From Acidimicrobiales bacterium (GTDB lineage: Bacteria > Actinomycetota > Acidimicrobiia > Acidimicrobiales > Aldehydirespiratoraceae), in NCBI GenBank assembly GCA_029247365.1, contig JAQWLJ010000067.1:1-57688 (forward strand): a DNA stretch of 57,688 nucleotides, read 5' to 3'. The notes beneath the pieces were generated by a model. The model saw only the letters and a program-made list of their open reading frames with translations. It made no database searches and was not told where the DNA came from. Position 1 is the stretch's first letter. Every line of letters starts with the position of its first letter. Shown piece by piece: positions 2,058 through 8,528 of this stretch. The translations under genes and the position numbers were made by a program.

Positions 2058-2549
2058 CTACTCGTCGAAGCCCCCACAGGTAAACATGACTTCGAAGACG
2101 ACGGCCATCAGCGCCTCCTCTTCCTCTGGGGAGGGATCGGCACCCGTCAACTCTGCGGTCATCATCGTCTCAAGAGTTTCCGCGTCGAGCGCGCCGGCGA
2201 AGCATTCGGCCTCGTCCTGAGTTGCGCCATCGGCGACCATCGAATCAACCATCAGCTGATTCATATCGACACAGTCAAAGAGTGACTCGATCAAGACGAG
2301 CTCTGCGCCTTCGGGCGGGTCGTCTTTAGGGTCGCCGGCGAGAAGCTCATCGAGCAGGTTGTCGTCGAGGCCGGCAACGAGAGCTTCTGCCAGGCAACGG
2401 TTCTCGCTATCGGTCAACTGGACGTCGTCGACGGCGCTTTCCTCTTCGAGAAAAGCTACGAGTTCGTCGACGCGAGGGTCACCGCCAGAGTCACCTCCGC
2501 AGGCGACTGCAAAAAGGGCAATAAATGTGATGACGGCGAGGCTCTTCAT
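2058..2549 (-). CDS. Small acidic secreted lipoprotein
   Basis: 163 aa. The signal is short: a Lys at residue 2, a hydrophobic stretch, then the lipobox LFAVAC with Cys 17, followed by a Gly/Asp linker typical of lipoproteins. The mature part is strongly acidic and has four further Cys residues spaced across it (RCLAEAL, FDCVD, AECFAGAL, MFTCG). This pattern suggests two disulfides and an internally repeated helical domain. I do not recognise a named family. The gene stands alone, with hairpin-repeat copies A and B on its two sides and a stem-loop 23 bases past its stop. Confidence 0.75.
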   Translation of the reverse strand: MKSLAVITFIALFAVACGGDSGGDPRVDELVAFLEEESAVDDVQLTDSENRCLAEALVAGLDDNLLDELLAGDPKDDPPEGAELVLIESLFDCVDMNQLMVDSMVADGATQDEAECFAGALDAETLETMMTAELTGADPSPEEEEALMAVVFEVMFTCGGFDE

Positions 2550-2670
2550 TCTGAAAGTGTCGCACCTTTATGCGAGCCACGCTTTGAAGGTGCGGAAATA
2601 ACGAGACCGGGAACGTCAGCGGCCGCGGTGGCCGAGGTTCAGGCACGGGCGAGAATGGCGTGGAGGGCTC

Positions 2671-2716
2671 GCAGAACCCGGCTGATTTCCGCGAGAGAAA
2701 CCGCCGAATTTTCCTA
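2671..2716 (+). repeat. Dispersed double-hairpin repeat, copy B
   Basis: Reads CGCAGAACCCGGCTGATTTC, then CGCGAGAGAAACCGCCGAAT, followed by a C-run as in copies C and D. Same orientation as the other copies. It lies upstream of the lipoprotein gene and abuts the 3' end of the small gene ending at 2714. Confidence 0.7.
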
Positions 2717-2920
2717 ACCCCCCTGATCGGGGTCGGTGTGCTGCGACACCGGGTTCTCCATGACGTCATCGAACATCTGGGGGGGGGTGCCGCGCTCGTC
2801 GTAGTCGAAGATCCGACGGATGATTTCGCGCTCTTCATCGGTGGGATCCGTCGCTGCGGACCCTAGCGCCTTCCGCATGGATGGCTTATCGCTCTCCGAG
2901 AGGGCTCCGACCGCGCACAT
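2714..2920 (-). CDS. Small hypothetical protein
   Basis: 68 aa from ATG 2920; a GTG at 2950 is an alternative with a weak GGCGGA upstream. The C-terminal half reads like real protein: an acidic amphipathic stretch (TDEEREIIRRIFDYDERG) followed by a Pro/Gln/Asp tail. The longer frame upstream to 3088 is antisense to the hydrolase signal peptide and was not used. No family recognised. It is divergent from the CocE-type hydrolase with about 50 bases between the starts. Confidence 0.4.
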   Translation of the reverse strand: MCAVGALSESDKPSMRKALGSAATDPTDEEREIIRRIFDYDERGTPPQMFDDVMENPVSQHTDPDQGG

Positions 2921-2971
2921 ACGATGCTCGACGGCGAACTCGCTCGGCACGATCCGCCGACTTAGTCTGGT

Positions 2972-5290
2972 GTGATGCTTCCCTCTTGCTTTGCTCTCCG
3001 ACCCACGCTCCGTCTGGCGACCGTCGTGATCCTCAGCCTGTCGCTGCTCGCTGTCGGCTGCGGCGACGGGGACGGGGACGCAGCGCAACCCCCTGACGAG
3101 AACTCCGACACCACCGCCGTCACCGATGGGCCTGCCGATGGTTCTTCTGCGGAGACCAGCACCAATTCTGACGATGCAGGATCCAGCGCGAGCGAAGCAA
3201 CGACGATTCCGGCCGACTTCTCAACGGTTGCCGCGGCTGGTCAGATCACTGTGACAGGGGCTGCGACGGGCACCGAGTTGACGCTGCGGGGACCAGGGGC
3301 CGAGCAGGTCGACACGGTTGATGATTTCGGCAACCTGCTGTTCCGGCAGGTCGAGCCAGGTGAAGGCTGGCAGGTACTTGCGCTCAGCACCGATCCGGTG
3401 CGGAGCAGCGACGAAGTGCGCGTGCCTGACTTCGACGAACACCCCGACCAGGCGTTCTTCGACGGTCAGGAGATCGGTGAGGGGTTCAACTACGTCGAGA
3501 TGCGCGACGGCACCTTGCTGAGCGCAACGGTGCGGTTGCCGGGGCCGATCGAGGATGGCCCTTATCCGACGGTGATCGAGTACTCCGGTTACGACCCGTC
3601 GAGTCCCTACGAGATCGAGCCTGCGATTAATATTTACGGTTTGTTGGGCTGGGCAACCGTCGGCGTCAACATGCGCGGGTCGGGGTGTTCGGGCGGGGCG
3701 TTCGACTACTTCGAACCGATGCAGTCGATCGACGGCTACGACGTCGTTGAGGCGATCGCCGCGCAGGACTGGGTGTATGAGAACCATGTCGGCATGGTCG
3801 GGATCAGCTACTCGGGCATCAGTCAGCTTTTCGTCGCGCAGACCCAGCCACCTAACCTCGCAGCGATCACACCGATTTCGGTGATCGAAGATTCGTATCG
3901 GTCGGTTGTGTGGCCCGGCGGCATCTACAACAACGGGTTCGCGAAAAGCTGGGGTGAGAGCCGTCAGGGCGCCAACGAGGCGTACGGTTCGGCGTGGGTC
4001 AATCAGCGCATCGACGAGGACGGCGACGAAATCTGTGATGCCAATCAGTTGTTGCGCAGCCAGAACCGCAATCTGGGAGAGGCGGCGGCCGAGACCGCGT
4101 TCTGGACCGATGCCCAAGGCGATCCCTTGTCGCCTCGGACCTTCGTCGGCCAGATCACGGTGCCGACCTTCCTGGCCGGCTCATGGCAGGACGAACAAAC
4201 CGGGGGTCGGTTCGCCACGATGCTCGATGACTTCACTGGCACAACGGTGTTCAAGGCCCACTTATACAACGGTGCACACGCCGATTCACTCGGGCCGCAG
4301 AGTCTCGCGGCAGCGATCGAACTACTCGACGTCTATGTCGCTGAGCGGACTCCGCAGGTGAGCCCGCTTGTTCGTCTCGGTGCCCCCGCCCTGTATGAGT
4401 CGGCGTTTGGCGTGGGCGGCATTGAGTTGCCACCCGATCGTTTCGCTTCGTTGGAGGAGGCCCGAGCCGCTCTGGAAAGCGAACCGGCGATCACCGTGTT
4501 TCTCGAAAATGGCGCGAACCCGGCAGCGTTGGGGGCACCCGTACCGCGCGAGTCGGTGTCATTCGAGCAGTGGCCACCGAGCGTTGCCGAAGCGGTGACC
4601 TGGAATCTCGGCGATCTGACCGGTGGGGAGTCGACAGCAGCGTTCACCGTCGATGTCGCACGATCTCAGTTGTTGACCAAGGCAGCCGATGAGGACGGCG
4701 ACGAGTTCGAGAATCTGCAGTGGGAGCCGCTAGAGGCGGGCAAGGCCATCGTGTTCGAAACAGCGCCGTTCTCCGAAGATCTGGTGTTGACCGGATCGGG
4801 CCGGGTGTCGTTGAGCGTGCATGCCGACGAGGCCGATGCCGATCTGCAGGTGACGATCAGCGAAGTGCGGCCCGATGGGCTCGAGATGTATGTGCAGTCG
4901 GGGTGGCTGCGGGCCTCGCATCGGGCATTGGACGACACCGAGTCGACCGAGGTCCTGCCGTGGCATCTGTTCACCGAAGCTGCAAGCGAGCTGTTGCCGG
5001 CCGGAGTATTCACCCAGGTTGATGTCGAGATCTTTCCGGCCGGACACGTGTTCCGGGCTGGTTCGGTCTTGCGCCTGATCATCGACAGTCCTGGCGGCAA
5101 CCGAAATCTGTGGGCGTTCGACGTGTTGGGGTTCGACGGGTCCCAGGTGCGGATCGATCCGGCAACGTCGTCGCTAACGCTGCCATTTGTGTCGGGCGTG
5201 GATGTTCCGGCGGAGCACCCTGATTGTGAGCACACCCGCAGCCAGCCATGCCGGCCCTGGCTGCCGTTCATGAATACGCAGGCGCCGTGA
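2972..5290 (+). CDS. CocE/NonD family hydrolase, lipoprotein
   Basis: 772 aa with GTG 2972 directly followed by ATG 2975, either of which could start it. A signal peptide ends in the lipobox LLAVGC, then a Ser/Thr/Asp-rich linker runs to about residue 75. The alpha/beta-hydrolase core follows. It has the oxyanion-side motif RGSGCSGG, the nucleophile elbow GISYSG and a catalytic-His region (NGAHADS), with SWQDEQTG as the likely Asp region. The last 200 residues are the beta-rich X-Pro dipeptidyl-peptidase C-terminal domain. The family (peptidase S15 type) hydrolyses esters and amides, including cocaine esterase and glutaryl-acylase relatives; the substrate here is unknown. It is probably anchored outside the membrane. 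The next gene overlaps its stop by GTGA. Confidence 0.88.
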   Translation: MMLPSCFALRPTLRLATVVILSLSLLAVGCGDGDGDAAQPPDENSDTTAVTDGPADGSSAETSTNSDDAGSSASEATTIPADFSTVAAAGQITVTGAATGTELTLRGPGAEQVDTVDDFGNLLFRQVEPGEGWQVLALSTDPVRSSDEVRVPDFDEHPDQAFFDGQEIGEGFNYVEMRDGTLLSATVRLPGPIEDGPYPTVIEYSGYDPSSPYEIEPAINIYGLLGWATVGVNMRGSGCSGGAFDYFEPMQSIDGYDVVEAIAAQDWVYENHVGMVGISYSGISQLFVAQTQPPNLAAITPISVIEDSYRSVVWPGGIYNNGFAKSWGESRQGANEAYGSAWVNQRIDEDGDEICDANQLLRSQNRNLGEAAAETAFWTDAQGDPLSPRTFVGQITVPTFLAGSWQDEQTGGRFATMLDDFTGTTVFKAHLYNGAHADSLGPQSLAAAIELLDVYVAERTPQVSPLVRLGAPALYESAFGVGGIELPPDRFASLEEARAALESEPAITVFLENGANPAALGAPVPRESVSFEQWPPSVAEAVTWNLGDLTGGESTAAFTVDVARSQLLTKAADEDGDEFENLQWEPLEAGKAIVFETAPFSEDLVLTGSGRVSLSVHADEADADLQVTISEVRPDGLEMYVQSGWLRASHRALDDTESTEVLPWHLFTEAASELLPAGVFTQVDVEIFPAGHVFRAGSVLRLIIDSPGGNRNLWAFDVLGFDGSQVRIDPATSSLTLPFVSGVDVPAEHPDCEHTRSQPCRPWLPFMNTQAP

Positions 5291-5850
5291 CGGCACCGAG
5301 ACCCGGCATCGCGATGAATGTTCAACCTTCCGCTCAGCGGCGTAGCCAAGGTCTCTCGATCACGCGGTCAATCTCGGCCCGGCAAGACGAGGTCTGGGAC
5401 GTAATCTCGGCTCCCGGCCACCTTGAGCTGGTTCATCCCTTCTGTGAGAGCAACGTTGTCTTTGAGTGGCCGGGAGAAGCAGCGGTGGACCAGATCCGCT
5501 ATCGAAGCGGATGGGTTTACGACCGGCATTTCAAAAAGTGGATCGACGGAGTCGGCTACGACCTCGAAATTGGTGCAGCAAACGAACCGACCTCACGAGT
5601 TTCTTGGAGGCTTGAGCAAAAAGACGGTGACGTGACCAACTTGACGATCAGTCTTTGGCCTCGCGTTATCGTCGACGTCCCGGGATTTCGGGGTTTGGTC
5701 CGTTGGGGGGTCGTTGGGCCGATGATGCGCCGTTACCTGCGTTCGGTCACTGCGGGGGTGGACTGGTTCGTGATCCATCGAACCCCAGTGCGGGCTGACC
5801 AGTTCGGCTTTCACCCTTGGTTCTCTTCGAAGCGACGTTCACGCGTGTGA
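5287..5850 (+). CDS. SRPBCC/START-like domain protein
   Basis: 187 aa if translation starts at GTG 5287, which overlaps the hydrolase stop as GTGA and suggests coupling; ATG 5314 is the alternative. It has the polyketide cyclase/Bet v1-like arrangement: an N-terminal strand (SITRSISARQDEVWDVI), a helix with HLELVHPFCES, then strands and a C-terminal helix ending MMRRYLRSVTAGVDWF. Such domains bind hydrophobic ligands or act as cyclases and aromatases. No catalytic residues can be assigned, so the function is unknown. Confidence 0.7.
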   Translation: MTAPRPGIAMNVQPSAQRRSQGLSITRSISARQDEVWDVISAPGHLELVHPFCESNVVFEWPGEAAVDQIRYRSGWVYDRHFKKWIDGVGYDLEIGAANEPTSRVSWRLEQKDGDVTNLTISLWPRVIVDVPGFRGLVRWGVVGPMMRRYLRSVTAGVDWFVIHRTPVRADQFGFHPWFSSKRRSRV

Positions 5851-5960
5851 GGGGCTCTGGGGTGTCGAAGTTTCCTTGCGTCAGGGGTTGAGCCAGAACC
5901 CGAGGACAAACGCCGACGGTTGGCGATTGTTGACCCTCAAACCCCTTTAGTCTGCAGCTT

Positions 5961-6437
5961 GTGCCGAGTTCGTTGCCGCGCGGAGGACCAAACGGGCCGA
6001 TTGCAAAGTTGGTCGCAACACAGTGGTTCCGAGCCATAGGACCGAAGATCCTGCCGCCGGTGCATCGCTTCATCCGTCGAGTTACCGCCGACAGGTTCGT
6101 ACCTGGAGCAGCACTCGTCCTTTTTTCAACAGGGGCAAAAACGGGGTTCGTCAGGGAGACCCCGCTCGAGTCGTTCCGCGACGATGGCTCATGGTTTCTC
6201 GTGGGATCCAACTTTGCTCAACACCACCACCCGGCCTGGACGGCAAATCTCCTTGCCAATCCCCAATGCGAAGTCTTGATCAGGGGACGACGAACGCGAG
6301 CTATAGCGACCCTACTTTCAGGCACGGAGCGCCGTGCTGCATGGGAATCAGCCGTTGAGCACTTCGGTGGCTGGTCCAACTACCCGAACCTTACGGATCG
6401 AGAGTTTCGGATTTTCGAACTGACTCTCACAGACTGA
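5961..6437 (+). CDS. Deazaflavin (F420)-dependent nitroreductase family protein
   Basis: 158 aa from GTG 5961. The split-barrel Ddn-type pattern is clear: HRFIRRVTADR, then LVLFSTGAKTGFVRETPLE, then GSWFLVGSNFAQHHHPAWTANLLANP and a final ERRAAW/FPN-like block with YPNLTDREFRIFEL. Characterised relatives in mycobacteria reduce quinones or nitroimidazoles with F420H2, or bind other flavins. The gene is monocistronic, about 110 bases after the SRPBCC gene. Cofactor use is by family analogy. Confidence 0.82.
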   Translation: MPSSLPRGGPNGPIAKLVATQWFRAIGPKILPPVHRFIRRVTADRFVPGAALVLFSTGAKTGFVRETPLESFRDDGSWFLVGSNFAQHHHPAWTANLLANPQCEVLIRGRRTRAIATLLSGTERRAAWESAVEHFGGWSNYPNLTDREFRIFELTLTD

Positions 6438-6501
6438 CGACCATCATCGGCCGAGTTGCCGTCGACGGAACGCTCAGGCGGTAAAATGTCGACGCGAGAC
6501 C

Positions 6502-6550
6502 AGTAGAGCCCGAGTGGGTTTCTGCGACAGAGACCGCCGAATTCTGCGAG
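6502..6550 (+). repeat. Dispersed double-hairpin repeat, copy C
   Basis: Nearly identical to copy D over its second half (TTTCTGCGACAGAGACCGCC, then GAATTCTGCGAG). It is followed by CCCCCgtagtGGGGG, which can form an extra hairpin. It lies past the 3' end of the SLH/propeller gene. Confidence 0.75.
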
Positions 6551-6657
6551 GCCCCCGTAGTGGGGGATTCGAAGAATTCAGTGGGGCCAGTGCTTGAGCG
6601 GAAGCCGGCATCACTCGTGCTGTATCTCGGTCGTCGCTGTAGTCGTCGCTGCGGCCG

Positions 6658-7233
6658 TTACCCGACCGGGATTTTCGACACCGAGTTATCGCCGTTGTTG
6701 GCGGTCCAGATGTGGGTGCCGTCAAACGCCACCCCCCTCGGTTCGTTACCGACGTCGATGGTGGCTGCGACTGCACCGGTGGCGGCCACAATCTTTGACA
6801 CCGTGCTGTCGCTGTAGTTGGCGGTCCAGATGTGGGTGCCGTCAAACGCCACGCCGAACGGGCTGTTGCCGACCGTGATGGTCTCTTGCCACCATTGCAA
6901 CAGCGCCACCCGTTGCCCAGGAGCGTCAACCCTCTCACCTAGCACGTCAGCAGCCGTTTGTGCCCCGTCCGCGGTTGTTTGGGCGGTGATGACGTCGGTC
7001 GTGATGTTGTCGAGTGCGGGTTGGACGACGTTTTGGTCGTAGCGGTACGCGAACGTCACGTTCTGGGCGCGTGTCACCGCGTTCTCTGGCGAAAACGTTG
7101 TTGCTGATGTGCCGGTCGTGACCCCGTTGTCAGCAGCCCACTGGACTGCGTCGGTGTAGTAGCGGCCTTCGTCAACATCAGTAAACGTGTTCGACGCAAA
7201 AGCCACCGACGCACCCAAACCAACCAGCCTCAA
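6658..7233 (-). CDS. SLH-like plus beta-propeller repeat protein, 5' end disrupted
   Basis: The frame opens at TTG 7233 and gives 191 aa. An SLH-like module (NTFTDVDEGRYYTDAVQWA, then GVTTGTSATTFSPENAVTRAQ) is followed by a helical linker and two beta-propeller-type repeats with GVAFDGTHIWTAN. Such modules are typical of surface proteins. The signal peptide is broken. ATG 7287 would give a basic and then hydrophobic leader ending SVAFA, but the four decamers at 7221-7260 create an in-frame TGA at 7242-7240 after 15 codons. Either translation restarts at TTG 7233 with a shortened leader or the gene is inactive in this copy. It is short for the type, ending in VSKIPVG, and is bracketed by repeat copies C and D. 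Confidence 0.65.
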   Translation of the reverse strand: MRLVGLGASVAFASNTFTDVDEGRYYTDAVQWAADNGVTTGTSATTFSPENAVTRAQNVTFAYRYDQNVVQPALDNITTDVITAQTTADGAQTAADVLGERVDAPGQRVALLQWWQETITVGNSPFGVAFDGTHIWTANYSDSTVSKIVAATGAVAATIDVGNEPRGVAFDGTHIWTANNGDNSVSKIPVG

Positions 7234-7260
7234 CCAGGCTCAACCAGGCTCAACCAGCCT
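7221..7260. repeat. Four tandem 10-bp repeats over signal-peptide codons
   Basis: The plus strand reads CAACCAGCCT, CAACCAGGCT, CAACCAGGCT, CAACCAGCCT with no spacer, then a partial CAACC. The array covers the predicted signal-peptide codons of the minus-strand SLH gene. With one unit the leader is open; with two or three it is out of frame; with four it is in frame but contains TGA. Confidence 0.95.
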
Positions 7261-7339
7261 CAACCGACGCCACACAACAAACCCCATCCCACGAACCAGA
7301 CGGCTCGCTTAAACAAAGTTGGCACAAAGCACCCAGACC

Positions 7340-7388
7340 CGCAGAACCCGGGCCGATTTCTGCGACAGAAACCGCCGAATTCTGCGAG
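7340..7388 (+). repeat. Dispersed double-hairpin repeat, copy D (best preserved)
   Basis: Two hairpins sit side by side. The first is CGCAGAA, an 11-base loop, then TTCTGCG; the second is CAGAA, a 9-base loop, then TTCTG. A C-run follows. The plus strand codes nothing here; translated in reverse the repeat yields the fragment RRFLSQKSA. Apart from this repeat and the array at 7221-7260, the gap from 7234 to 7676 shows nothing recognisable. Confidence 0.8.
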
Positions 7389-7676
7389 TCCCCCAAGCCT
7401 CCACCCGCGGTTTTGGCCGTTGGCGCCGTGTGTATTGAATCCCGACCCGGTCACAGTTTCTGGCGTGAGCGCTTATTTGCTGCTTGACGCCGCCACTGTT
7501 CGCTTCCGCTTCACCGAGAAGCGTTCTGCTATCGAAGCACGCGCCGCTACAGGCGAACCTCTTGCTGTAATCGACCTGAACCGGGCATTTCAAAGGCGCA
7601 GGCTGCTGCCGACCAGCGTCTGTCGCCGAAAGCCCTCTCACTTGTGGCCTCGGCACCGGGCTGGCACCGTTGGCCG

Positions 7677-8528
7677 ATGCAGGAACTCTCAAGCAAGACA
7701 GCAGTGGTGACAGGCGCAGCGAGCGGAATAGGTCTCGGATTCGCCGAGGCATTCGCCGCGCAAGGGATGAACGTCGTGATGACCGACGTCGAATCCGGCC
7801 CGCTCGCAATCGAAGCGGAGCGGATCGCTCAGAGCGCCGAGGTGCTCTCGATGGTGGTCGATGTCTCCAAGCTCGATCAGATCGAAGCGATGCACGCAGC
7901 CACGCTCGAACGCTTCGGGGCCGCGCACGTGCTCTGTAACAACGCGGGCGTCGGTGGCGGAGGCGACGTGGCCGACTGCCCGATCGACATGTGGGAATGG
8001 GTCCTCAACGTCGATCTGTGGGGTGTCATCTACGGCTGCAAAACGTTCCTTCCCGACATGCTCGAGCAGGGTGAGGGGCACATCATCAACACGGCCTCGA
8101 TCTGTGGTCAGCTCGCGTTCGGCGGCAACGGGCCTTACAACGTCGCAAAGTTCGGTGTGGTCGCCTTGTCGGAGACAATCGCCGAGGAAGTCGCCGATAC
8201 CGGGGTCAGCGTAAGCTGTCTCTGCCCGGGGTTCGTCGCGACGCGCATCATCGAGTCGAGACGAAACCTGCCCGAGGACATGGCCGCCCAGCAGGGCGAG
8301 CCGACGGCCGAGGAGTTGGCGATCCGCAACGCGATCCTCGAACAGTTCTCGCAACGCAAGCCGCCATCGGAGGTCGCCGATCTCGTGGTGAACGCGATCA
8401 AGGACGAGCAGTTCTGGATCTTCACCGACGATCACTTCCAGCCGCGCATGGCCGACCGGGCCGAGGCGATTCAGGTCGGGACGTCGCGGCCCATGCTCGG
8501 TCGCATGGCCGACACTTTCTTCGAGTAG
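7677..8528 (+). CDS. Short-chain dehydrogenase/reductase
   Basis: 283 aa from ATG 7677 (MQELSSKTAVVTG); an in-frame upstream ATG at 7644 would add 11 residues that do not look like SDR sequence. Classical SDR marks are all present: TGAASGIG for the cofactor, NNAG around residue 85, the catalytic Ser in the NTASICG block, and YNVAK with the Tyr/Lys pair. An Asp (TDVES) at the end of the second strand suggests NAD rather than NADP preference. The substrate cannot be told. The gene stands alone and is followed by a stem-loop shared with the convergent HTH gene. Confidence 0.88.
   Translation: MQELSSKTAVVTGAASGIGLGFAEAFAAQGMNVVMTDVESGPLAIEAERIAQSAEVLSMVVDVSKLDQIEAMHAATLERFGAAHVLCNNAGVGGGGDVADCPIDMWEWVLNVDLWGVIYGCKTFLPDMLEQGEGHIINTASICGQLAFGGNGPYNVAKFGVVALSETIAEEVADTGVSVSCLCPGFVATRIIESRRNLPEDMAAQQGEPTAEELAIRNAILEQFSQRKPPSEVADLVVNAIKDEQFWIFTDDHFQPRMADRAEAIQVGTSRPMLGRMADTFFE

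Follow-up and report, generated by a model that had tools for sequence, protein, structure and literature searches.

The gene for an S-layer homology (SLH) domain protein on contig JAQWLJ010000067.1 of an Acidimicrobiales bacterium was probably silenced recently. It belongs to a family of secreted SLH proteins, and the duplicate would have been lost by repeat growth in the DNA that encodes the core of its signal peptide. The whole stretch of 57,688 nucleotides analysed here is called the window. The features of the gene are as follows.

Positions 7221-7265, minus strand: decamer array of 4.5 copies, found by TRF and by reading of the letters, with the units GGTTGAGGCT, GGTTGAGCCT, GGTTGAGCCT, GGTTGAGGCT and GGTTG.
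Positions 7240-7287, minus strand: interrupted leader, from ATG 7287 to TGA 7242-7240, 15 codons (MGFVVWRRLRLVEPG); the start is common to the paralogs on contigs C12 and C65.
Positions 7231-7233, minus strand: candidate TTG start within the final unit; it shares the frame of the SLH domain at any unit number and would leave a leader remnant of 13 residues.
Positions 6658-7233, minus strand: open rest of the gene (191 aa frame), i.e., SLH domain, linker, two YVTN/NHL-like repeats and stop.

The array was detected by TRF with a period of 10, 4.5 copies, 94% matches and a score of 76. It lies in the signal-peptide region of the SLH-domain gene, on the minus strand. The unit consensus is GGTTGAGSCT, which has TGA inside and a length of 1 modulo 3. 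One hundred order-1 Markov randomisations were made from the window; one of them reached a best TRF score of 76 (mean best score, 48), and by this measure the array exceeds chance expectation. Arrays were also surveyed in 400,419 bases, i.e., 20 stretches and the window, approximately 13% of the 3.11 Mb genome. Fifty-five arrays with a score of 40 or more were found there, and the array at 7221-7265 was the sole one that combined a score of 50 or more with three or more copies and a period that 3 does not divide. Just below this cut fell an 8-bp array of three copies (score 48).

The pattern of two decamer units, searched with up to two mismatches, had no second occurrence in the genome of the bacterium itself. 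With up to one mismatch, it was found in 2 of 61 genomes, i.e., the own genome (G000) and the relative G009, in which positions 52086-52105 of contig C47 (L130) matched two units exactly. The match is followed by TTGGTTTGGTTGGG, which resembles the core of the paralog leaders. On inspection, the site was DNA without an SLH frame. It is likely a chance match in G/T-rich DNA, and it may also be a relic of common descent. The available text of the literature on leader repeats, on slippage and pseudogenes, and on phase variation in Acidimicrobi does not name this locus, and a literature search for S-layer homology in Acidimicrobiia found nothing.

The effect of the unit number was examined with a script that swapped the array for 0 to 9 units and read each version from ATG 7287. 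With one unit, the frame was open through LVGLGASVAFASNTFTDV, 199 codons in all. The frame was shifted with two units (stop after 29 aa) and with none (stop after 57). All versions from 3 to 9 units halted after 15 aa, at one and the same TGA. The cause is a unit with TGA inside whose length of 10 cannot be divided by 3: at 1 modulo 3, three tandem copies of such a unit show TGA in every frame. The stop of the window copy, TGA 7242-7240, sits in the hydrophobic core of the leader. The first-pass annotation had placed a stop codon of the array inside the signal peptide of an SLH protein and had stated that a single unit would leave the leader open into the mature part; the TRF array and the script bear out both statements. 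Its assignment of frames to unit numbers held for one (open), two (shifted) and four units (stopped), and needs correction for three, which it gave as shifted and which stop at the TGA. The one-unit leader has 21 residues and a best 10-residue hydropathy of 2.08. Judged by length and hydropathy, with no signal-peptide program, even this open state may export poorly.

Relatives of the gene were searched in the same genome at the DNA level. At least 13 places besides the query were matched (among the best 40 of 59 candidates, which were scored), and the close gene copies among the scored matches were C12:205-614, C65:10708-11100, C65:11442-11653 and C62:323-907. The first three showed 90, 91 and 88% DNA identity to the window copy, respectively, from the leader through the start of the SLH domain. 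Their leaders read MGFVVWRRLRLVVAVVGLVGLGASVAFA and then SNTFTDV, and all three are open, without array or stop; decamer repeats were carried by 0 of these 3 leaders. In the alignments, the leader region of the window copy has a net gain of 9 bp against them. A more distant copy on contig C55 has a different leader, MTFRITKLKAAVALLVVALLVPATAFA, also without an array.

Behind the leader, the copies differ. The longer C65 frame goes on into DELSC...GWRCAD, and the C12 frame stops shortly past DELSC. C65:11442-11653 keeps the leader and approximately 20 further codons, and then other sequence follows. The C62 copy has neither a leader nor the beginning of the SLH domain. YVTN-like repeats are present in the window copy and in C62. 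By sequence comparison, these copies share their front and differ behind, and the SLH family would be a shuffling one. At C65:10708-11653 (L011), two modules of leader and SLH domain face each other with approximately 340 bases between them at a contig end, and one of the two is truncated; a real inverted duplication and an assembly artefact are both possible. With the SLH query, the own genome gave 36 matches (E <= 0.01), many of which lie in multi-SLH frames of 470-1500 codons, and this SLH repertoire is large for a 3.1-Mb genome.

The history of the array can be sketched by comparison with these paralogs. The ancestral leader was likely MGFVVWRRLRLVVAVVGLVGLGASVAFA, surviving in the three paralogs, with a G/T-rich core that holds GGTTG words. 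There are two such words in the paralog leader, 21 bp apart. Excision of the separating 21 bp from the C12 leader yields the window stretch TTGAGGCTGGTTGGTTTGGGTGCGTCGGTGGC, letter for letter. An in-frame deletion of 21 bp between the two words would have taken away seven residues and left one near-decamer. Serial duplication of 10 bp would then have added three units. The path would also need three base differences in the units: a T to G change that makes the first unit whole, and a G to C change in each of units 2 and 3. The order, deletion and then duplications, is our inference, and this path of one 21-bp deletion and three duplications would be one parsimonious path among several. The units carry the TGA that halts translation from ATG 7287 after 15 codons. 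A restart at TTG 7233 would give a leader of 13 residues, probably too short for export. The copy is thus most likely a pseudogene of recent origin, and further copies in the family are broken too.

The gene was also compared with known silenced duplicates. The lost part is intact in paralogs, i.e., in three leaders without array or stop, and the inactivating lesion against these paralogs is the TGA at 7242-7240 in the leader core. The gene resembles a null allele or pseudogene made by slippage in its intact-leader paralogs, its private expansion, its early stop and the other broken copies. It differs from such an allele in two ways: the expansion would be paired with a deletion that is itself in frame, and the frame is kept, at a net gain of 9 bp. 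The loss is therefore due solely to the TGA in the unit. The first-pass annotation had offered either a switch or silencing by repeat expansion. The silencing part is favoured by the intact paralog leaders, the private array and the stop in the core; the switch part fares poorly, since the one-unit state alone is open.

The rest of the gene was examined for its domains. The SLH domain was identified as PF00395 (Pfam E 2.9e-10), with 40.4 bits against a curated cut-off of 20.8. The NHL match, i.e., two beta-propeller-like repeats, had an E of 0.0055 and stayed below its cut-off. A 120-bp DNA repeat was found by TRF at 6677-6892, within the YVTN/NHL-like part. A search of a plasmid collection returned one record, a YncE-family gene that covered 16% of the query at 69% identity, and a phage collection returned zero matches to the query.

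Substitutions were counted between the window copy and its paralogs. Over the first 61 codons past the leader, a cut that was picked after the table was seen (the linkers diverge), there were seven synonymous changes and one non-synonymous change against C12, and the same against C65a. Over 70 codons, synonymous to non-synonymous changes were 7 to 5 (C12) and 7 to 7 (C65a), because the linkers diverge. Against C62, the SLH part showed a dN of 0.02 and a dS of 0.19 (46 codons), and the linker a dN of 0.15 and a dS of 0.38 (39 codons). In the YVTN part (window 6661-6894 against L009), dN was 0.24 and dS 0.19, with 23 non-synonymous and 4 synonymous changes in 78 codons; this divergence may reflect blade shuffling, diversification or decay. 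These counts suggest an SLH core that was constrained until recently, which fits both a recent loss and no loss at all. Against silencing, it counts that the 191 remaining codons are open and that no relaxed constraint is demonstrable in the window copy.

A dispersed element lies on both sides of the gene, in the same orientation.

Positions 7336-7401, minus strand: dispersed hairpin-like element, upstream of the leader.
Positions 6498-6570, minus strand: dispersed hairpin-like element, downstream of the gene.

A third copy in the window was placed at 2666-2732, also on the minus strand. The element has approximately 66 bases and a long predicted hairpin. It occupies nine places in the own genome, i.e., the three in the window, C12:555-620, one each on C22, C65 and C66, and two on C52. 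Among 41 genomes, 9 carry it, 8 of them from one genus, at 22 places in total once 3 antisense duplicates are taken from the 25 rows; BLAST-like copies also occur in G026 and G032, both outside the 41. Ten of the 22 places start at the 3' end of an RNA gene (tmRNA, 6; tRNA-Val, 3; tRNA-Ala, 1), and the C12 SLH paralog stands directly after a tmRNA and the hairpin-like element. The Rfam search of window positions 2400-7700 gave no match at E <= 1, and no compensatory changes in the predicted hairpin were found in any pair of copies.

Outside the genome, a scan of named genomes gave six loci, i.e., two from one Acidimicrobiales metagenome-assembled genome, one from an Acidimicrobiaceae metagenome-assembled genome and three from distant clades. 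The pattern of the leader start, searched with up to two mismatches, was found in 2 of 61 genomes, the own genome (G000) and G032, which belongs to another genus of the family. In G032, the ATG stretch is present on contig C13 with 0 mismatches, and a reading from its ATG misses the frame of the SLH part. Judged by coordinates, this contig is likely JAQWMR010000013.1, which is 84% identical over query residues 23-92. A reading by eye suggests a probable deletion across the core that damaged the leader. MAFFT kept the ATG stretch of this contig apart from that of the paralogs. Upstream, the SLH frame stays open over 49 codons that include no ATG, and therefore a different start may serve.

Several other explanations of the array were weighed. 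Translation may still yield the protein through TTG 7233, as a restart site or a weak start, so that the unit number would be irrelevant and a short-leader or cytoplasmic SLH protein would result. This is unlikely, even though the TTG keeps its frame at any unit number, the gap from TGA to TTG is 6 nt, the remaining frame is open and the SLH core is conserved. The leader from TTG 7233, MRLVGLGASVAFA, has 13 residues, whereas the paralog leaders have 28; its mean hydropathy over the best 10 residues is 2.08, and theirs is 2.96. By these two measures such a form would probably not be exported; by eye, no Shine-Dalgarno-like sequence was seen ahead of TTG 7233. A contingency locus, in which slippage of the decamer would toggle the SLH protein between cells, is improbable. 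The model for it is Neisseria opa, a contingency locus of a surface-protein gene with CTCTT repeats in the leader-coding 5' end, as described in the available text of PMC3960869. The likeness to this system, as far as that text goes, lies in short tandem repeats of a unit that is not a multiple of 3 at the leader-coding 5' end (PMC3960869), and here too the protein is of a surface type and a one-unit state would be open. However, CTCTT is stop-free in every frame (runs of CTCTT, CAAT and GCAA gave zero stops in all frames by script), whereas three or more decamers here always stop and two give a shifted frame. No unit number of three or more leaves the frame open, and the one-unit state is left without an array to slip. 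For this reason the gene would make a poor reversible switch. Repeats were also absent from the leaders of the three close paralogs, unlike what an Opa-like repertoire would show, and no second such array was present in the 400,419 bases. A variant of this idea, quite improbable as well, is a switch that works one way or returns rarely. Most cells would carry the stopped multi-unit form and rare one-unit cells would present the SLH protein, made with a shorter leader, while the slip-prone core would be hit repeatedly across the family, by expansion here and by the probable deletion in G032.

Control by a leader peptide was considered, in which the 15-codon repeat frame would tune the downstream frame by attenuation. 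A precedent is pil1 of Streptococcus gallolyticus, with GCAGA repeats in a leader-peptide frame according to the available text of PMC3894217; the likeness, within that text, is that of repeats in a short reading frame ahead of a surface-protein gene (PMC3894217). Three terminator-like sites were found in a scan of 6400-7700, all on the strand of the gene between 7333 and 7226, one of them in the array (7240-7226). This is a weak excess over the 1.5 +/- 1.0 expected from shuffles of the whole 1.3-kb region. The fold of the leader RNA had a z of 0.32, with 121 of 200 shuffles folding at least as well. In contrast to pil1, no strong terminator structure was apparent here from the scan and the fold, and the same stretch is a plain signal peptide in the paralogs. 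This makes attenuation very improbable. An error of assembly or consensus at a repeated module is also very unlikely. In its favour, the assembly has 75 contigs, several members of the family sit at or close to a contig end with possible collapse or misassembly at repeats, the window copy is flanked by repeated elements, and the three related Acidimicrobiales loci of the named scan all come from metagenome-assembled genomes. Nevertheless, the copy is internal to a 57.7-kb contig and the 45-bp array is shorter than ordinary reads. The array was not borrowed from a sister copy, because its sequence occurs nowhere else in the genome, which also counts against such an error.

The probable silencing has a meaning beyond this locus. 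Repeat growth can kill the gene of a secreted protein and yet keep its frame, the stop being part of the unit. This also gives a filter for claims of contingency loci, since a unit that contains a stop and has a length that is not a multiple of 3 is unusable as a frame switch at three or more copies. If the deletion reading of the G032 contig is true, the leader core of this family has suffered two or more such events, one an expansion and one a deletion. If the rare-return switch were true, the signal-peptide core of these genes would be a hot spot of mutations that shut down surface proteins.
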